A stretch of DNA of 55,379 nucleotides from Acidobacteriota bacterium (GTDB taxonomy: Bacteria > Acidobacteriota > Terriglobia > Acidiferrales > UBA7541). The stretch is taken from positions 1 to 55,379 of the forward strand of contig QHYM01000123.1 of the NCBI GenBank assembly GCA_003223295.1, written 5' to 3'. This document shows, piece after piece, positions 21,262 to 33,956 of this stretch (within the stretch, counting starts at the first letter, position 1; the number at the start of each line of letters is the position of its first letter). The position numbers and the translations under genes were made by a program. A model generated the notes under the pieces. The model was given only the letters and a program-made list of their open reading frames with translations, was not told where the DNA came from and searched no databases.

Positions 21262-23019
21262 TCAGTGAACGGATCCGACGAAAACGCCGAACGGCGCAAT
21301 GGTAAATTGCGCCAAGGGCATTGAATCCTGCTCGGGTAGCGGAGCTGCAAGCAAAGTTCTCGCGGAACTTCCTTTGAAGCCAAGCGAGGCGAGGTCCAGT
21401 TTCACCGTTCGCGGCTCGCCACTCATATTGAGCACAACGAGAATTGAGTCGCCGCTGCCGGGATTCTTGCACAAGTAGGCGAGAACATAGGGATCATCGC
21501 GGTCCAGAGACACATAGCTTCCGTTCCGCAAGCCAGGCTCGCTCTGGCGCATGGCGAGCAAACGTTTGTAGAAAGAAAGAATCGAATTGGGGTCGCCGGA
21601 TTCAACTTTGACATTGTATTCCGCGGCGCTGGGCGGGATCGGAAGCCAGGTGTGGTCCGCGGTACTGAATCCTGAGCCTTTCGAATTGTCCCACTGCATG
21701 GGTGTGCGCTCGCCATCGCGGCCCTTCTCTTCCGGCCAGCCGATCTTCCCGATGGGATCCTGGACATCCTCCTTGCGCGTGGGCGGCGTGGTTCTCATGC
21801 CAATCTCTTCGCCGTAATACATGAGCGGTGTCTGGCGCGTGGTGAGGAGGAGAGCAGCCATCAGCTTGGCGATCTGGTCATTGTGAACGCCGTCTCCATA
21901 GCGGTCCCATTGTCGCGGCTGATCGTGGTTGCTGAAAAAGAACTCGGGCTGGCCGTGTGCGGCGTTGTGGTCCGCTTCATCCAGCAACCGGCGGAACTCT
22001 GGCGCGGAGAGCTTGTTCACGTCGGCGATCTGAAAGTCCATGGGCAACTGGACTTCATCGTTTTTCGTGCCGTACATTTTCGTGAGCTCTTTGATGTTCG
22101 GCTCATCGGCTTCGCTGATCAGCACGGGGTTTCCGGGATAGGCATCGACGACGCGCCGCATTTCGCGCAGCACTTCGTGAATTTCGGGCAAATTGTCCGT
22201 GTATTTGTGCTGGATGTTTGGGTCACCGTAAGCATTCTTGCCGGGCAGAATCGGATCGTCGTGCAGGTTCGGATCTTCGAACAAGCGGGAGACGGCGTCG
22301 AGGCGGAAGCCAGCCGCACCGCGATCCAGCCAGAAGCGCATGGCGTCGTACATGGCCTTACGCACTTGCGGATTGCGCCAGTTCAGATCGGGTTGCTCGG
22401 TGTAAAAATGATGGTAGTAGTATTGGTTCGTCGCCGGATCCAATTGCCAGGCAGAGTGGCCAAACCACGACTGCCAATTGTTGGGAGGCTCGCCGGGGCC
22501 TTTACCGTCGCGCCAGATGTACCAGTCGCGCTTCGGATTGGTACGCGAGGAACGCGACTCTTTGAACCAAGAACACTGATCTGAGGTGTGATTGGGAACC
22601 AGATCCATGATCACCCGGACGTTTCTTTTCTTCGCCTCCGCCAGCAGGTGATCGAAATCCGCCAGCGTGCCGTAAAGAGGATCAAGCGCGGTGTAGTCGG
22701 CGACATCGTAGCCAAAATCCACTAAAGGCGAGGGATACATCGGGGTAATCCAAATGGCGCTAATGCCCAGGTCTTTCAAATAGTCCAACCGCGATGTAAT
22801 GCCATTGATGTCGCCGACGCCATCGCCGTTCGAATCCTGGAAGCTACGGGGGTAGATTTCATAGATCACAGCGTGTTTCCACCACGGGTCGTGCGCGGTC
22901 TCGCTGGTTTGCTTGTGCGCAGCTATTGGTGGAGCAGTTTGCTGCGCTCTGGCTGGAATCGCAAAAAGGCCAAGGCCAAGTGTTAGAGCGAGACGGGAAA
23001 ACTTAGCGAGCTTCGACAC
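21262..23019 (-). CDS. exported GH13 alpha-glucosidase / oligo-1,6-glucosidase-like enzyme
   Basis: A 585-residue protein from GTG 23019 with an AGGAGAG ribosome site and a signal peptide (LALTLGLGLFAIPARA). The GH13 barrel signatures are all present. DLVPNHTS is region I. The nucleophile Asp is in GFRLDAVSR, the acid/base Glu in LISEADEP, and the transition-state Asp in FFSNHDQPR. The start of the mature enzyme, VIYEIYPRSFQDSNGDGVGD, is typical of alpha-glucosidase, oligo-1,6-glucosidase and trehalose synthase-type GH13 members. A periplasmic location suggests cleavage of imported malto- or isomalto-oligosaccharides. It is the last gene of the redoxin/heme-copper/TPR operon (39 bp after the TPR gene). 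Confidence 0.93.
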   Translation of the reverse strand: MSKLAKFSRLALTLGLGLFAIPARAQQTAPPIAAHKQTSETAHDPWWKHAVIYEIYPRSFQDSNGDGVGDINGITSRLDYLKDLGISAIWITPMYPSPLVDFGYDVADYTALDPLYGTLADFDHLLAEAKKRNVRVIMDLVPNHTSDQCSWFKESRSSRTNPKRDWYIWRDGKGPGEPPNNWQSWFGHSAWQLDPATNQYYYHHFYTEQPDLNWRNPQVRKAMYDAMRFWLDRGAAGFRLDAVSRLFEDPNLHDDPILPGKNAYGDPNIQHKYTDNLPEIHEVLREMRRVVDAYPGNPVLISEADEPNIKELTKMYGTKNDEVQLPMDFQIADVNKLSAPEFRRLLDEADHNAAHGQPEFFFSNHDQPRQWDRYGDGVHNDQIAKLMAALLLTTRQTPLMYYGEEIGMRTTPPTRKEDVQDPIGKIGWPEEKGRDGERTPMQWDNSKGSGFSTADHTWLPIPPSAAEYNVKVESGDPNSILSFYKRLLAMRQSEPGLRNGSYVSLDRDDPYVLAYLCKNPGSGDSILVVLNMSGEPRTVKLDLASLGFKGSSARTLLAAPLPEQDSMPLAQFTIAPFGVFVGSVH

Positions 23020-23058: not shown

Positions 23059-24159
23059 CTATGGCTTTGCTTCCGTACGGTTCTGCAACTGTTCCGACAA
23101 TTTGAGTTCGCGTTCGGCGTCTTCAGTCCGGCCCAATTCCCGGTAAGCCAATCCGAGCAAATGATGAGGAATGGGATTATTCGGATCCATGGCCAGCGCG
23201 CGCTGTAAGGCGCGCACGGCCAGCGCGAATTCCCCCTTTTTCTCGAGCACCTTTCCCATCAGGATGTACGGGCCCGTGGATGTGGCATCGAGCCAAATCG
23301 AGCGCTGCAGCAGCTTTTCCGCATCCTCGTATTTCTGTGCACGCGTGTAGGCGTCCGCCAGCTTGTAATACACCGCGGCGTCGCCGGGATTCAGCTCCAA
23401 TTCTTTTTGGAACTGCTCAGTGGCTTCGGGGATGCGCGACTTAAAGAGGTAAATCTCGCCGAGCAAGGAATGCACCAGCGGAAGTTTGGGATCCAACTCC
23501 ACCGCTTTCTTCGCGTATTCTTCGGCAACCACGTCAAAGTCGAAGCGCAACATCATGCGAGCGGTGAAGAGGTGGCTGGCCGCAGAATCGGAGGGAACAG
23601 CAAACATTTTGGCGAACGCTTTGCGCGAATTGGGATAGTCTTTGGTTTGCATGTAGCAAATGCCAAGAATGTAGGAAGCATCGACATTCGCGCTGGGATA
23701 CCAAGTTTGGACTTTTTCGAGTGGCGCGATGGCTTCTGAGGGCCGCCCTGCGAGGTAATAAGACAAACCCATCAACTGAATGGCTTCGCTATCGCCCGGC
23801 TCCTCTTCCAGGGCTCTCTTGAAACTTGCAACGGCCTTCAGATAATCGCCCTTCTTGTAATAGACGATCCCCAACTCATGTGAGAGCCTCTCCAGATTCG
23901 GCTGTTTGGCAGCTAGCGCTTCCAACTGCCCAATCGCCTCGTCAAACTTCCCTTGCTGCGACAAGCGCCGTGCTTCAGTAAACGCCGGATCCGCTGAACT
24001 ATTCGGCATTTGCTTGGCTGACTCTGGTGACTGAGCCATTTCTTCGTACGAAGGTTTGTGCGGCAGAGCTGTACCGAAAACGGGAAGAAAACCACTCAGG
24101 AGAGCGCAACTCGCTGCAAGCCCCAGCTTCCGTTTCCGCGGTATGGAATTCTCCACCAA
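23059..24159 (-). CDS. exported TPR-repeat protein
   Basis: A 366-residue protein starting with TTG 24159 or GTG 24156, with GGAG upstream. A hydrophobic leader (LGLAASCALLSGFLPVFG) precedes about eight tetratricopeptide repeats, for example LSHELGIVYYKKGDYLKAVA, YILGICYMQTKDYPNSRKAF and PHHLLGLAYRELGRTEDAER. TPR arrays bind partner proteins or peptides; no catalytic domain is present. It lies 15 bp after the heme/copper/TPR gene and 39 bp before the GH13 gene, so it belongs to that operon and may scaffold its products in the periplasm. Confidence 0.88.
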   Translation of the reverse strand: MVENSIPRKRKLGLAASCALLSGFLPVFGTALPHKPSYEEMAQSPESAKQMPNSSADPAFTEARRLSQQGKFDEAIGQLEALAAKQPNLERLSHELGIVYYKKGDYLKAVASFKRALEEEPGDSEAIQLMGLSYYLAGRPSEAIAPLEKVQTWYPSANVDASYILGICYMQTKDYPNSRKAFAKMFAVPSDSAASHLFTARMMLRFDFDVVAEEYAKKAVELDPKLPLVHSLLGEIYLFKSRIPEATEQFQKELELNPGDAAVYYKLADAYTRAQKYEDAEKLLQRSIWLDATSTGPYILMGKVLEKKGEFALAVRALQRALAMDPNNPIPHHLLGLAYRELGRTEDAERELKLSEQLQNRTEAKP

Positions 24160-24174
24160 AAGTAATTTCTCCAG

Positions 24175-26007
24175 TTACGGGTGCTTCGAATCCCGGCTGA
24201 TCTGCTCAAGGTTCTCGCGCGCCAACTTGTGATTGGGATCAATCTGCAAGGCGCGTTGAAGATGAACCTTTGCTTCCGCGAGATTGCCGGTTTCGGCCAG
24301 CGCGCCGCCCAAATTCGCCTCTGCATTGGCGTCGTCCGGACGCAGGCGGACGGCTGCGCGATAATGTTCAATCGCGTCAACGAATTTGTCCTGAGAAGCA
24401 AGAGCATTTGCCAAATTGTAGTGCGCGTCGAAATTGTCTGGCTGTGTCTTGAGTGCCGCGGAAAAATACGGAATGGCCTCGCCGAATCGGCCCACGGCTA
24501 AGAGAGACGCGCCAAGCGCATTGTTCGCCGTGGCATCCTGAGGGTGAAGGCGGACTGCCTGTTCGAAGTGTTGGATCGCGTCGGCTTGCTTGCCGCGGGC
24601 CATGAGCATAGCCGCAAGGTTGTACTGCGCTTCGAAGTCCCCAGGATTCTTCTCGACGTCGTGCCGCGCCATGGCTTCCTGCAGCTGCATGCGCGGATCG
24701 AAGGCGGTATCAGAAGAAGTGTGCGGAAGAACCTGAAGCCATAGATGGGCCATTTCGTCGCTCGAGCGGTTTCCGGCCACGACGCGGCGCGGAGGATCAT
24801 TTGGATTGGCAACATTTTCGCTGGAGTTGTCGTAGATGTAGCGCATGGAAATCGCGGTGCCCTTTGGCAACGCCAGTGGAACTGCGTAGCGATAAACAGC
24901 CTGCCAGTTCAAATTCCATTGGGGAATGTGAATAAGTGTTTTTGTGGAGCCGTCGGGCAAGGTCGCGAGGGCTTGCAAATCCTTGCCGAGATAGTGCGCG
25001 TGAGGATAGATGGCGAGCAGATCCACATCGACCGGAAGCGTGAATTGGTCCGTGACGACGAAATGCTTCTCACCGGGAGGGATGTCGAGCTGACGGTCGT
25101 TTTCCAATTGGAGCAGCAGAGGGAAGAGCGTTGCCGGCTTGTCGGTGAAGTACAGCCCTAGACTTGGCTGAATCTTCTCCTGTTTGCCAGAGGGCTGCAA
25201 GTGGATGTTCAGGACCAAATCGGTATCTTTGTCCAGGCGCAGAGCCATACCGTCGGGCTCGGGTTTAGGCACGGTGCCCGGCTTCCAGAAAAGGAAGTGG
25301 CTATCGGGATCAAAGGATTCAGATTCGATTTTGAGCTCCATGCCGGAGAAACCGGCGCCCGGCTCTTTTTCCTGGCGGCGCGCAGACTCACCGCGGTCCA
25401 CAAGAATGTTCGCGTGATGAACCACGCGTTTGTCGCCGGGCCGGATCTCGATGGCTTTCAGCCAGCGCGTGCGGTCAACCGGAGTCCGAAAAATGAAATT
25501 CCAGTACATATCGGAGCCAGTGGCGGGAAGCGTGTACGGTTTTTCCGCTTCGATAATTTTGTCCGGCTGGCCCAACTGCCAACCGGGGACGAATCGTGGG
25601 GCGCGAGGAAGATCGGCGGCAGCGCCCTCGACCGCTCCCTGCTCGACCCACTTTTGAATGACGGCTATCTGTTCGTCTGACAGACGGAGTTCGTCTGCAA
25701 ATTTGGACTCCTGCGGCTCCGGCAGCCAGGGGGGCATGAAGCGAGTCGACGTTACCGCAGCGATTAGGCGGGCGCGCGCCTTGGCGTCTGCATAGGTGAG
25801 AAGCGGGAACGGACCTGCTTCGCCGGGGCGGTGGCACGGGGCACAGTATTGAAAGAACATCGGAGCGATATCCCGATTAAAAGTCACCTGTTGTGCAGTC
25901 GGCCTGGGACGACGCACAGCAGGGCCCTCGTGCTTCGCAAAAGCTGCCGCGGTTAGGGAGCTCAATGCAAGCGAGCACGCAACAATAGTTCGGACTGAGC
26001 AGGTCAT
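24175..26007 (-). CDS. c-type heme / PHM-like copper monooxygenase / TPR three-domain exported protein
   Basis: A 610-residue protein. ATG 26007 overlaps the redoxin stop by four bases (ATGA), so the two are translationally coupled. After a signal peptide comes a cytochrome-like segment with the heme-attachment motif CAPCH (residues 55-59). The central part resembles the ascorbate-dependent copper monooxygenase (PHM/DBM) fold with every copper ligand in order: HH 197-198 (VVHHANIL), H269 (NIHLQPSGK), HxH 336/338 (YPHAHYLGK) and Met 419 (DEMAHLW). Residues of about 455-610 are four TPR repeats. Known members hydroxylate substrates using copper and electrons from a donor; here the heme may supply electrons. 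Function in this family is not established. Confidence 0.82.
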   Translation of the reverse strand: MTCSVRTIVACSLALSSLTAAAFAKHEGPAVRRPRPTAQQVTFNRDIAPMFFQYCAPCHRPGEAGPFPLLTYADAKARARLIAAVTSTRFMPPWLPEPQESKFADELRLSDEQIAVIQKWVEQGAVEGAAADLPRAPRFVPGWQLGQPDKIIEAEKPYTLPATGSDMYWNFIFRTPVDRTRWLKAIEIRPGDKRVVHHANILVDRGESARRQEKEPGAGFSGMELKIESESFDPDSHFLFWKPGTVPKPEPDGMALRLDKDTDLVLNIHLQPSGKQEKIQPSLGLYFTDKPATLFPLLLQLENDRQLDIPPGEKHFVVTDQFTLPVDVDLLAIYPHAHYLGKDLQALATLPDGSTKTLIHIPQWNLNWQAVYRYAVPLALPKGTAISMRYIYDNSSENVANPNDPPRRVVAGNRSSDEMAHLWLQVLPHTSSDTAFDPRMQLQEAMARHDVEKNPGDFEAQYNLAAMLMARGKQADAIQHFEQAVRLHPQDATANNALGASLLAVGRFGEAIPYFSAALKTQPDNFDAHYNLANALASQDKFVDAIEHYRAAVRLRPDDANAEANLGGALAETGNLAEAKVHLQRALQIDPNHKLARENLEQISRDSKHP

Positions 26008-26597
26008 TGGACGTTCGTGATGAAACACCCGACCCCTGGCTGATTCGGTGGCGCGGCCTTACCGGAGAGAGCGGCTTGGATGGCGTCGTCGAGTTCGTGG
26101 GTCGTGGCTGCGGGGCGGGCATGGCCGAAATCCTGGTACAGGTTATCGATGCGGCCGTGATACAGCAGTTGGCGCTTGGCGTCGAAAACAGCCGCCTCAG
26201 GGGTCACCTGGGCTTGGGCTTGAGCAACAAGCACGTGCTGGGGGTCGCGCAGGGCGGGAAGCTTGTAGCCATAATCCCGCTCGTGTTGGCGAATTTTCTC
26301 AGGAGATGCTGTTTCGCTGGGATAGACTAGCGAGAAACTTACTTTGTCGCCGTATTGTGAACTAATTCGCTGGATCAACGGCGCGTAGCGGTTGGAGATG
26401 GGGCAGTCTGTCCGCACGAAGACGAACACCACAGGCTTCCCCGAAGACGCCTGAAAAGGGTCTGCCGGCGTACCGTCAAGATGCAGGGCCGTCTTTTGGG
26501 CCGCTGGAGAAGCGGGCCATATCAAAAGGAAAAACGCCATTGCGACGAGAGGAAAGAAGGGTGCTCTCGGTTGTGCGGTAAAGGTAGAGCGACGCAT
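26004..26597 (-). CDS. exported redoxin / AhpC-TSA-like thioredoxin-fold protein
   Basis: A 197-residue protein with an AGGGA ribosome site and a hydrophobic leader (FFPLVAMAFFLLIWPASPAA). The thioredoxin-like fold has VVFVFVRTDCPISNRYAPLI, with a single cysteine in the place of the usual CxxC, as in one-cysteine peroxiredoxin-like proteins. The C-terminus has a second cysteine (GVGCFITNV). It is the first gene of the operon with the heme/copper/TPR protein and is coupled to it. It may keep that protein's copper or cysteines reduced, or detoxify peroxide made there; this is inference. Confidence 0.8.
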   Translation of the reverse strand: MRRSTFTAQPRAPFFPLVAMAFFLLIWPASPAAQKTALHLDGTPADPFQASSGKPVVFVFVRTDCPISNRYAPLIQRISSQYGDKVSFSLVYPSETASPEKIRQHERDYGYKLPALRDPQHVLVAQAQAQVTPEAAVFDAKRQLLYHGRIDNLYQDFGHARPAATTHELDDAIQAALSGKAAPPNQPGVGCFITNVQ

Positions 26598-26698
26598 GAA
26601 TGGTTCCCTGGAAGCGTACTAGCCAAAAAATTCTACTTCCTCATGAGCGCCCTGTCCATTTGCCAAGTCGATTGCTCGGGCCTTCTGAACACGCTCAG

Positions 26699-26730
26699 AA
26701 AAAAACGGGGAGCCGGTCAGGGCTCCCCGT
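26699..26730 (-). terminator. Rho-independent terminator of the TonB-dependent receptor gene
   Basis: Read on the minus strand, ACGGGGAGCC and GGCTCCCCGT form a perfect 10-bp stem with a 6-base loop, followed at once by a run of T. The structure lies 29 bp after the receptor stop codon and about 100 bp before the redoxin start. It therefore separates the receptor transcript from the redoxin operon downstream. Confidence 0.92.
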
Positions 26731-26758
26731 CGGGGTGGTAGGGGTGTCCTCGTCCTTG

Positions 26759-30829: not shown

Positions 30830-32101
30830 ATGTCGGGCCAAGGTGGGAGAGTGGCGGACAGGGCTTATTTCCGGGGGCAGGTCGACAAACTCCTTAACAG
30901 TCATGCCTTGCATGGCTCTGAATCCCTATGCAAACTGCTGCGGTATTTGGCGGATCACGCTTTGGACCACCCCGGTGCTTCCCCCAAGGAATATCAAATT
31001 GCGACGGAGGTATTTGGGCGTCCGAGCGATTTCGATCCCCATTTGGACTCCACCGTTCGCGTTCAAGCGGGACGCCTTCGGGGCAAGCTGGCCGAATACT
31101 ATGCGTCGGAAGGCGCCGACGACCAGATTGCCGTCGACTTCCCCCGGGGCACGTATGCTCTCACTTTTCACGAACGTCCCGCGAGTACCGCTCGTAACCA
31201 CGTGGGCGCATCACACGAGTCTTCGCTCGAGCCGATCGGCGCAAGCCAAACTAGCCGCAGGTGGTACGCGGGGGTTCTCCTGGTGGCGGCTGCCCTGTCC
31301 GCTGTCGTGGCCGTCGCTACGGACCGCTTCCTGACGCGAAAAACCGCGGAAGCCCGGCTGAGTAGCGACACCCCCGATTTGCCGCTGGCCTTTCACGTTT
31401 TCTGGAAGGGGTTTCTCACCGGCCCGCAGGAGCCCTGGGTTATCTTCAGTAACGCCGCTTTCGTGGGCCGGCCATACGTGGGCATGCGCTATTACAATCG
31501 CGCCAAGGATTCCGGCGCGGCGATCCTGGATCATTACACGGGGGTCGGCGAAGTGCTGGCCGTGCACGCCCTCGATAGTGTTTTCGGAGAGCTTCATCAG
31601 CAAATTCGCGTCAAGCGCGGTAGCTTGTTTTCCCTGGACGATGCCAAGAACAACGACCTCATTTTCATTGGGTCTCCTTCGGAAAACTTGACCCTCTTGG
31701 AGCTGCCAAATACCCAGGAATTCATCTTCAAACAGATCACTTCGGGCAGGCGCATGGGCACTATGGAAATCATCAACTCTCATCCGGAATCGGGAGAACC
31801 GAAAGAGTTTCTTCCTACTCAGCCTGACGAAACGCTGACGGAAGACTATTCGATCATAGCCCTAAAACGAGGATTGAACCCTGCACATTCGGAATTGATT
31901 CTGGCAGGCGCCACAACCATCGGTACGCAAGCCGCTGTCGAGTATGTTTGCCAGCAAGCCTCGCTCGAAGAATTGTTGCTCCGGCTGTCCGTCTCCGACT
32001 CCGGCGAATTGAAGCCCTTCGAAGCGGTCATCCATGTGAAAGTAGCTCGCGGTGTGCCGGTGGGAACGGAACTTATCGCGTTGCGCAAAGGGCCATCGTA
32101 G
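30830..32101 (+). CDS. membrane-bound winged-helix-type regulator
   Basis: A 423-residue protein (ATG 30830; an in-frame GTG at 30851 with GGGAGA just before it is an alternative). The first 110 residues hold a conserved helical domain seen in many acidobacterial and rhizobial proteins: LLRYLADHALDHP, KEYQIATEVFGR, DSTVRVQAGRLRGKL and IAVDFPRGTYALTF. The last part looks like the recognition helix and wing of an OmpR/ToxR-like DNA-binding domain. A single transmembrane helix follows at about residues 146-164, then a 250-residue domain outside the membrane with no family I recognise. It probably senses a periplasmic signal and controls the divergent TonB receptor gene; this is inferred from position. 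Confidence 0.68.
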   Translation: MSGQGGRVADRAYFRGQVDKLLNSHALHGSESLCKLLRYLADHALDHPGASPKEYQIATEVFGRPSDFDPHLDSTVRVQAGRLRGKLAEYYASEGADDQIAVDFPRGTYALTFHERPASTARNHVGASHESSLEPIGASQTSRRWYAGVLLVAAALSAVVAVATDRFLTRKTAEARLSSDTPDLPLAFHVFWKGFLTGPQEPWVIFSNAAFVGRPYVGMRYYNRAKDSGAAILDHYTGVGEVLAVHALDSVFGELHQQIRVKRGSLFSLDDAKNNDLIFIGSPSENLTLLELPNTQEFIFKQITSGRRMGTMEIINSHPESGEPKEFLPTQPDETLTEDYSIIALKRGLNPAHSELILAGATTIGTQAAVEYVCQQASLEELLLRLSVSDSGELKPFEAVIHVKVARGVPVGTELIALRKGPS

Positions 32102-32156: not shown

Positions 32157-33956
32157 TCACGGTGTTGGAGGCTTCAAGCGCGAATCGAGTTCGGCTGCTG
32201 CCTTGAATTCCTGGGCAGCGCCCTGCTTGTCGCCTTTTCGCTGCAAAGCCAATCCGAGCTGGTAATGTGCCGGCGCATATTCCGGCACGGATTGAATCGC
32301 CGCGCGAAACTGCGAAATCGCGCCATCGATATCCCCCGCGTTGAGCAAGCGCCGTCCTGAATTTGTGGCAAAGAGTGCCGCCTGCTCGTTGGTCTTCCGT
32401 TTCGCAAGGTCCGCTCCGGCGCGGCTCTCCGCTGCGGCGCCTTCCGCGTCGCCGAGCAGCCGCAGCACCGCTGCCAGTGTGGTGTGTGCGCCGGCGAACT
32501 CCGGCTGGAGACGGATCGCTTCCCGCAACGCCTTTGCGGCCTCCGCCAGCTCACCCTTTTGCTTCAACACCGTGCCCAGCGTGTAGTAGGCCTCTGCGTA
32601 ATCCGGCTTGGCACTGATTGCGGCTCGAAGTTCGTCAGCGGCCGCCGCAAAGTCGCCTTGCTGCCAGAGCGTCACGCCCAAGGTGTAGTGCGCGTCGGCC
32701 TGCCCGGGATCCAGTTCCGTTGCCCTGCGAAACTCCGCCATGGCTTCGGGCAGTTTGTCCTTTAGCTTGAGCGCCAATCCCAGATCATAGTGCAGGGTTG
32801 CGTCTTGCGGGGCTAGCTTCAAGGCCGCCTGAAAATTGGCCACGGCGGAATCAAAGTCCGAAACCTGCAGATACGCCGCTCCGAGATTTCCGATGTAGGT
32901 GCTGTCCTCCGGGCGCAAACGGATTGCTGCCTGAAATTCGGCAACGGCTCCTTGAGCATCCCCGTTCTGCAAGTAAGTGAGCCCCAAATTGTTGTGGACG
33001 TCAGGATTGTCCGGCTGCAATTTCAACGCCTGGCGAAAAGCCACCATGGCCCGCTCCGTTTCGCCCCTGTGCTGCAAGAGCATGCCCAAGCTGTTTTGGG
33101 CGTCAGGATAGTCCGCGTTCAACTTGACGCAAGCCTGCAACTCGTCAATCGCCGCGGCTGCCTTGCCTTGCGCCTTCAAAACCTGCGCAAAGTAGTAGTG
33201 GCTCCCCGGGTCGGAGGGTTCCAGTTGCGCTGCCGCTTGCAGGTGCGCGGCTGCCTCCATGATCGCCTGTCGTTGATACTGCAAAACGCCCAAGTGAAGA
33301 TGGGCCTTTGCAAAGTTGGGCTGTAGCCGCACCGCCTCGGAGAATTCCGCTTCCGCGCTTTGCGCGTCCGATTTCTGCGTCAGCACGGTTCCAAGGTCGT
33401 CATGCAATTCCGGCCTTTGTGGCTCAAGCTCGATCGCCCTGCGGAACTCGCCAATCGCGCCGTCAAAGTCCTTGGAGAAGTCGAGCACGCGTCCCAGCGT
33501 GCGATGTGTCTCCGAATCGTTGGGGGCCAGGCGCGTGGCTTCCTGCGACTCGCGCAGCGCGCCTGCCAAGTCTCCCTTGCGGATGAGCGCGTTAGCGAAA
33601 TTCACGTGTGCCTGCACAAAATCTGGCTTCAGGGTCAACGCCTTTTGAAATTGATGGATCGCAGCGTCGACGTCGTCTCGCGCGAGTAACACCCAGCCGA
33701 GGGAGTTGTGTCCCTCGGGACTCTGTGGCGCCAGGCGCACCACTGTTTCGAACGCAGTGCGGGCGGAATCCAGGTCTCCCTTTTGAAGCGCAGCCAAACC
33801 TCGCTTGTAGATCGTTGTTGCTTTCGATGCCGAGTCCGAAGGCGCGGAACTGGCAGACTGCCCATTACAAACGGTAGCAGCCGCGAAGGAATGAAAGAGA
33901 AGAACGGCAGAGATCCGAACAAGAAGTTTCCGGCGACGAACTAGGCTTGGTTTCAC
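32157..33956 (-). CDS. large exported TPR-repeat protein
   Basis: A 599-residue protein from GTG 33956 with AAGGG upstream and a hydrophobic leader. It is almost entirely tetratricopeptide repeats, about 15, of the 34-residue type, for example EGHNSLGWVLLARDDVDAAI, QAHVNFANALIRKGDLAGAL, PDVHNNLGLTYLQNGDAQGA and AHYQLGLALQRKGDKQGAAQ. Adjacent repeats are similar enough to suggest recent internal duplication. No catalytic domain is present. It is divergent from the broken CRTAC1 gene (136 bp between starts); CRTAC1 and TPR proteins often sit together, which hints at a shared surface or extracytoplasmic role. Confidence 0.88.
   Translation of the reverse strand: MKPSLVRRRKLLVRISAVLLFHSFAAATVCNGQSASSAPSDSASKATTIYKRGLAALQKGDLDSARTAFETVVRLAPQSPEGHNSLGWVLLARDDVDAAIHQFQKALTLKPDFVQAHVNFANALIRKGDLAGALRESQEATRLAPNDSETHRTLGRVLDFSKDFDGAIGEFRRAIELEPQRPELHDDLGTVLTQKSDAQSAEAEFSEAVRLQPNFAKAHLHLGVLQYQRQAIMEAAAHLQAAAQLEPSDPGSHYYFAQVLKAQGKAAAAIDELQACVKLNADYPDAQNSLGMLLQHRGETERAMVAFRQALKLQPDNPDVHNNLGLTYLQNGDAQGAVAEFQAAIRLRPEDSTYIGNLGAAYLQVSDFDSAVANFQAALKLAPQDATLHYDLGLALKLKDKLPEAMAEFRRATELDPGQADAHYTLGVTLWQQGDFAAAADELRAAISAKPDYAEAYYTLGTVLKQKGELAEAAKALREAIRLQPEFAGAHTTLAAVLRLLGDAEGAAAESRAGADLAKRKTNEQAALFATNSGRRLLNAGDIDGAISQFRAAIQSVPEYAPAHYQLGLALQRKGDKQGAAQEFKAAAELDSRLKPPTP

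Follow-up and report, generated by a model that had tools for sequence, protein, structure and literature searches.

A putative heme-copper monooxygenase of the PHM/DBM fold and its redoxin partner in Acidobacteriota

How could a bacterial protein built on the two-copper core of PHM and DBM be supplied with electrons? In animals this oxygen-activating core serves hormone- and neurotransmitter-making enzymes, and it has long been asked how electrons reach its two distant coppers and pass between them. The question is raised again by a locus in the soil genome of an Acidobacteriota bacterium (assembly GCA_003223295.1, contig QHYM01000123.1, positions 1-55,379; this whole stretch of 55,379 nucleotides is called the window below), where the list of open reading frames (ORFs) gives, in order on the minus strand, a redoxin gene, a gene for a heme-copper-TPR protein, a separate TPR gene and a GH13 gene. 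We favour, with somewhat better than even confidence, the reading that the heme-copper-TPR protein is a dicopper monooxygenase of the PHM/DBM fold, exported and probably periplasmic, which would receive its electrons via its own covalent c-type heme and not from free ascorbate. This reading is supported by a PHM profile and fold match, by the conserved heme and copper residues, by the coupled redoxin gene and by the cytochrome c assembly family PF01578, which has three matches in the genome.

Heme and copper sites of the PHM/DBM-like protein

The heme-copper-TPR protein (24175..26007, 610 amino acids from its ATG; all coordinates of this gene unit and its flanking signals refer to the minus strand) was delimited by its ORF, a profile match and an AlphaFold2 model. 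Its listed ORF starts at GTG 26028, 21 bases 5' of ATG 26007; with the ATG start, the residues singled out in the initial annotation (CxxCH, HH 197-198, H269, H336/H338, M419) all carry the numbers assigned to them there. Three parts can be distinguished: a cytochrome c-like domain (25642..25881), a PHM/DBM-like double jelly-roll copper domain (24694..25572) and C-terminal TPR repeats (residues ~459-597; 24217..24633), the latter proposed from the outset and covered by Pfam TPR families. PADLOC, run on the locus, returned TPR matches plus one PDC-M16B match over the TPR part. The protein is predicted to be exported and is probably periplasmic.

The copper domain is identified by a profile of 27 homologues, which finds rat PHM in the PDB with E ~1e-12 over profile positions 127-395. 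In this alignment the HH, H, HxH and the Met of SSDEM in PHM are all in register with six residues of our protein: HH197-198 (25414..25419; H197 in 154/155 and H198 in 155/155 copies) and H269 (25201..25203; 155/155) are the putative CuH ligands, while H336-A-H338 (24994..25002; 154/155 each, aligned to PHM HTH) and M419 (24751..24753; 153/155) are the putative CuM ligands. The supposition that homologues would keep these ligands thus holds, each being retained in 153-155 of the 155 copies. The heme attachment motif CxxCH (C55, C58, H59; 25831..25845) and Met91 (25735..25737, in FMPPW / MPPW), the candidate axial heme ligand, together make up the traits of a c-type cytochrome and, like H198 and H269, are invariant in 155/155 copies. 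Copies spanning <340 or >480 residues were dropped from this set, including the heme-truncated L086:12419 and L088:6164, and some of its rows are near-duplicates, the same locus having come in from each of two collections (for example, L039/L120 and L041/L175).

An AlphaFold2 model of the 412-residue core (45-sequence alignment; predicted local distance difference test, pLDDT, 89.1) resembles PHM (1phm, 1sdw, 3mic; VIA Z 20.4, 262 residues, 3.5 A, 20% identity) and human DBH (4zel; Z 18.1, 272 residues), the next fold after these entries reaching Z 8.1 only; in Foldseek, ranks 1-31 are all PHM and DBH entries. The predicted core is PHM-like with the ligands aligned in PHM order, as had been anticipated from the letters of the DNA. 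A chance motif was rejected on account of the PHM profile match, the PHM-like fold and the ligand conservation in 155 copies, and a PHM/DBM fold carrying both copper ligand sets plus a heme attachment site in one chain is supported by sequence and model alike.

The families filed in Pfam capture this protein poorly. Taken alone, it matches Cu2_monoox_C with E 0.005 and Cytochrome_CBB3 with E 0.0013, both under the gathering score; PF03712 scores 16.7 bits against a cut-off of 23, and PF01082 is absent both from the Pfam rows shown and from a scan of the core alone at E<=0.01. Among the 27 homologues, 19 match Cu2_monoox_C, 18 Cytochrome_CBB3 and four Cu2_monooxygen at E<=0.01. Because the curated scores of PF01082 and PF03712 are not reached, we call the protein, as judged from alignment and model, a divergent homologue of PHM/DBM, the copper type II, ascorbate-dependent monooxygenases, rather than a filed member.

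With PHM it shares the double jelly-roll fold, the order of the HH, H, HxH and M ligands, a similar ligand spacing by PHM numbering and the residue aligned to PHM Gln272, kept in 148/155 copies. Unlike PHM, it adds an N-terminal cytochrome c-like part and a C-terminal TPR part, and its cysteine-poor core lacks the PHM disulfides. DBH, which carries an N-terminal DOMON domain, has the same copper core, whereas in our protein a c-type heme domain occupies the place of the N-terminal domain. The residues that bind the peptide carboxylate in PHM (R240, N316 and Y318) are replaced: at the R240 position mainly Tyr (104) or Gln (32) is found, with no Arg among the seven commonest residues (153/155 rows), the N316 position is mainly His or Asp (Asn in 2/155) and the Y318 position mainly Trp (Tyr in 2/155). 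Peptide amidation was therefore rejected as an activity. With the ligands kept and the carboxylate residues replaced, the copper chemistry is likely retained in this family, and peptidylglycine is likely not its substrate.

Homologues of the core are found in 66/297 genomes of a phylum-wide draw (E<=1e-10) and in 144/299 genomes of a class-wide draw, often several per genome, and the best 80 of 377 relatives in named genomes, mostly metagenome bins (the named loci below), are nearly all labelled Acidobacteriota or its groups; L111 is labelled Betaproteobacteria despite 82% identity. At E 1e-5 the core matched nothing among plasmids. Two copies are unusual in their architecture: L011 (G242:C558) has a CxxxCH-type heme motif, CAQPCH, in place of CxxCH, and L068:5165-9331 encodes two complete heme-PHM cores, one after the other, in an open frame of 1389 residues. 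The genome of the window holds one further homologue, on contig 175 (G000:C175:9139-10407, or L096:5936-7441), where no redoxin was found beside the core and an FG-GAP/UnbV_ASPIC-cluster gene follows in the same orientation after 80 bp. A literature search over titles and the starts of abstracts, with most subscription journals outside its scope, found no description of the heme-PHM family; PMC6107167, on NHLRC2, is unrelated to it.

The redoxin and its pairing with the heme-copper core

Directly upstream lies the redoxin gene (26004..26597, 197 amino acids; Pfam Redoxin 5.6e-6), whose product has a signal-peptide-like N terminus by eye. Its stop codon and the start codon of the heme-copper gene share the four bases ATGA (26004..26007), in agreement with the overlap first reported. 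The product had been described as a one-cysteine redoxin; this needs correction, since C65 (26403..26405) and C191 (26025..26027, in a C-terminal GCFI) are both present in 20/20 and 30/30 homologous sequences, and only the first Cys of the CxxC is missing. The classical active site is thus replaced by RTDC (RTDCP, with Arg at the first CxxC position), and the second cysteine is the C-terminal C191. The model (pLDDT 89.7) has a thioredoxin fold with 2ywo, 2cvb and 3u5r as nearest entries (Z 19.2), ResA and CcmG being among the relatives after the 2cvb group; P133 of a TPE motif is invariant in 30 sequences and would have cis-Pro geometry.

The closest relatives in the PDB are the TTHA0593-type proteins 2cvb, 2ywi and 3u5r (E 2e-18 to 2e-14, Z ~19), with which the redoxin has the C-terminal GCxI cysteine in common. 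Whereas 2ywi and 2cvb have an intact CxxC (CNHCP), 3u5r (SNRCP) is without the first Cys like the redoxin; we know of no link of these proteins to a copper protein. Sco copper chaperones have CxxxC plus a metal-binding His, and peroxiredoxins have PxxxTxxC. A Sco-like redoxin was rejected on finding neither CxxxC nor an invariant His in the 30-sequence alignment, and a peroxiredoxin was rejected as inspection of the alignment revealed no PxxxTxxC.

The pairing of the two genes recurs in other genomes. We chose 60 regions, 59 from the best matches listed for the phylum draw (with several from one genome, and many truncated at contig ends) and one around the second copy in the window's own genome; of the 19 redoxin ORFs in them, 16 immediately precede a core gene in the same orientation and three are fused to one, twice with the redoxin N-terminal and once C-terminal. 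In the 155 copies from both collections, nearly all labelled Acidobacteriota, a redoxin lies <=300 bp upstream in 61 (the window included), is fused in three, L064, L090 and L091, and lies <=1500 bp away in six, and at 51 of 58 distinct junctions the core start codon is placed exactly at the four-base overlap with the redoxin stop.

The class draw permits the reverse view, starting from 90 redoxin rows (E to ~1e-16) and core rows to ~E 5e-88, so that its counts of redoxins without a core are upper bounds. Of the 20 best redoxin matches, 18 lie <=300 bp upstream of a core, one at 1362 bp and one has no listed core, which supports the neighbourhood of the two genes proposed for this locus. For 53 weaker matches a core is adjacent within 300 bp with the redoxin upstream (26) or downstream (6), within 3 kb downstream (2) or on the other strand (1), and for 18 no core is listed in the vicinity; among the 17 weakest, one is upstream of a core and 16 are without a listed core. 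Within the same genus, the redoxin occurs in 14 of 29 genomes, and each of these also has a close core homologue (best E <=1e-100); eight genomes with only a distant core have no redoxin, and seven have no core.

Mapped on a tree built from all 155 copies, the redoxin-linked state changes 20 times, compared with a shuffled mean of 48.3, and at least 12 times on supported branches; the changes may be overcounted, because some copies near contig ends are labelled as having no redoxin and very divergent redoxins would be missed. In the 33-row group which holds the window all 33 copies are redoxin-linked. The redoxin is a recurrent partner of the heme-copper protein.

Electron route and role of the redoxin

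If the favoured reading is right, copper and heme would be loaded into the protein, a periplasmic electron carrier would reduce the heme, and the heme would then reduce the CuH side. O2 would be activated at CuM, leading to the hydroxylation of a C-H bond in a substrate which is probably not peptidylglycine. The redoxin would be a dedicated partner, most likely in maturation, where it would hold the CxxCH thiols in the reduced state or assist metal loading, or alternatively an extra reductant in the lineages possessing it; the TPR tail is probably where a partner or substrate protein binds.

Several observations weigh against this scheme or parts of it. The conservation of residues is no proof of monooxygenation; the Foldseek TM-scores to PHM and DBH are moderate (0.41-0.49 by query length), and the fold matches span mainly model residues 120-412, barely covering the cytochrome part. 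In the paralogue L095:5333-7321, which keeps the heme site, four of the six copper ligands are missing, so that non-catalytic members possibly exist. Finally, no adjacent redoxin was found for 85/155 copies (a label which includes copies near an upstream contig end and would miss very divergent redoxins), all 85 carrying heme and copper sites, and the redoxin is thus not needed by the whole heme-copper family.

The last point bears directly on the initial annotation, in which heme and redoxin were suggested to form the electron route: the redoxin is not supported as the general one, whereas the heme is a plausible candidate. Since every counted copy has the heme and only some an adjacent redoxin, the heme is likelier to be the general point of electron entry, with the redoxin as an accessory, and the built-in heme suggests a donor other than ascorbate.

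What the accessory does may be approached through the cysteines of its partner. The core domain has no cysteine besides the CxxCH pair in 48/61 linked and 59/85 unlinked copies and in none of the three fused ones, each of which has one extra Cys. A core whose cysteines are mostly the CxxCH pair would offer little to a disulfide isomerase except the apocytochrome thiols, and the pattern fits help with heme attachment, metal loading or electron supply by the redoxin. That the redoxin is a dedicated maturation factor, keeping the apocytochrome CxxCH reduced in the manner of CcmG or ResA or delivering copper in the manner of Sco, is a possibility which we entertain tentatively; the presence of ResA and CcmG among its fold relatives and the linked copies with the heme pair as sole core cysteines speak for it, but the pattern is not specific, as the unlinked and fused copies demonstrate, the CxxC is not intact, the motif and invariant His of a Sco-like site are lacking, and copies without a redoxin presumably still mature.

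It seems rather unlikely that the redoxin is an obligate electron donor which takes the part of ascorbate, with a C65/C191 dithiol passing electrons straight to the heme or to the coppers. The tight gene coupling with three natural fusions, the two invariant cysteines and the 48 linked cores, which hold little else for a dithiol protein than the heme pair, speak for it; however, the many heme- and copper-bearing copies with no adjacent redoxin found argue against an obligate donor, and without the classical CxxC its redox activity is uncertain. More doubtful still is a copper-heme binding protein devoid of oxygenase activity (a metal or oxygen sensor, an electron carrier or a copper store), for which the PHM fold would serve as a scaffold: the paralogue without four ligands and the replaced carboxylate-binding residues are consistent with it, but the six ligands and the Gln272-aligned residue, all kept, would be needless in a mere scaffold.

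Returning to the dicopper monooxygenase with a heme inlet, we regard the wider proposition as evenly poised, namely that these proteins constitute a large family of bacterial dicopper monooxygenases which do without ascorbate, each with its own cytochrome c inlet, accompanied in many Acidobacteriota by a dedicated redoxin with two cysteines, and acting on a new class of substrate. If true, bacteria would have their own equivalent of the PHM/DBM enzymes of animals, one that uses electrons of the respiratory chain. The PHM core is common in this one bacterial phylum, in a form where a single chain combines both copper sites with a site for covalent heme. With a heme reporter built in and a thiol partner coupled to it, such a family would open the electron question of PHM/DBM to direct testing. 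Feeding of electrons from a heme domain to a copper monooxygenase is known from cellobiose dehydrogenase with lytic polysaccharide monooxygenase (LPMO), a pair which shares the heme-to-copper principle and differs in its folds, its b-type heme and its separate proteins.

Neighbouring genes and clues to the substrate

Downstream of the heme-copper gene and on the same strand follow, as first described, the separate TPR gene (23059..24159, TTG start, assigned by ORF and Pfam) after 15 bp and the GH13 alpha-glucosidase-like gene (21262..23019; Pfam Alpha-amylase 3.2e-132) after a further 39 bp. Among named loci with enough flank, a separate TPR gene comes next after 14 of 36 redoxin-linked copies and after none of 28 copies without redoxin; eight linked and five unlinked copies at contig ends were set aside from this count, and the unlinked L142 does adjoin a TPR gene. 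In L100:7797-10811 the heme-PHM-TPR and the downstream TPR gene form a single 1005-residue open frame, beside which the GH13 gene is split over frames, and an assembly error is possible there.

Sugars had been considered as substrates in view of the GH13 neighbour, a suggestion which is unsupported because this neighbour is not conserved. A sugar-acting enzyme in an operon for alpha-glucoside or trehalose utilisation is very improbable: the GH13 gene stands next in the window and occurs in 6/80 of the closest named loci, and 8/80 include, in the stretch retrieved, a gene cluster with a GH37 trehalase as its tested member, but GH13 is seen only in close relatives and was found in 0/60 other regions, the GH37 gene after the TPR gene is on the opposite strand, and among the matches listed a trehalase is near the core in few genomes of the class survey. 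The placing of the GH37 cluster varies: it follows the TPR gene in L113, L115, L116, L122, L124 and L133 and lies upstream in L136 and L169. For GH37 the genome of the window itself gave no match. Among the matches listed in the class survey, a comparison by eye places a trehalase <=5 kb from the core in G350 and G562 and ~9 kb away in G543; in other linked genomes it is on another contig or none is among the matches listed, and the trehalase link to the redoxin-core pair is a lead only.

Two further families are met around these genes. A TonB-type receptor is present in 52/140 loci and was rejected as a specific partner: the family numbers 80 matching pieces in the window's genome, too abundant for this presence to carry much weight. 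FG-GAP/UnbV_ASPIC-cluster proteins, identified by Pfam on one representative, occur near heme-PHM genes in 28/140 loci (for example, L153:9832-11559) and beside the second copy of the window's genome.

Between the upstream TonB-type receptor gene and the redoxin unit a consensus scan found a terminator-like hairpin (26704..26731), and 5' of the redoxin a weak promoter-like site (26630..26658) with 10/12 consensus matches. Such hairpins number 15 versus 11.9 +/- 3.5 in shuffles, little above these, and promoter-like sites five versus 3.7 +/- 2.0. Farther along the window, the gene at 30830-32101 has no Pfam match and resembles by eye a cluster found in 16/140 loci, and 32157-33956 encodes a TPR-rich protein; in several close relatives, genes like these two lie ahead of the receptor gene.

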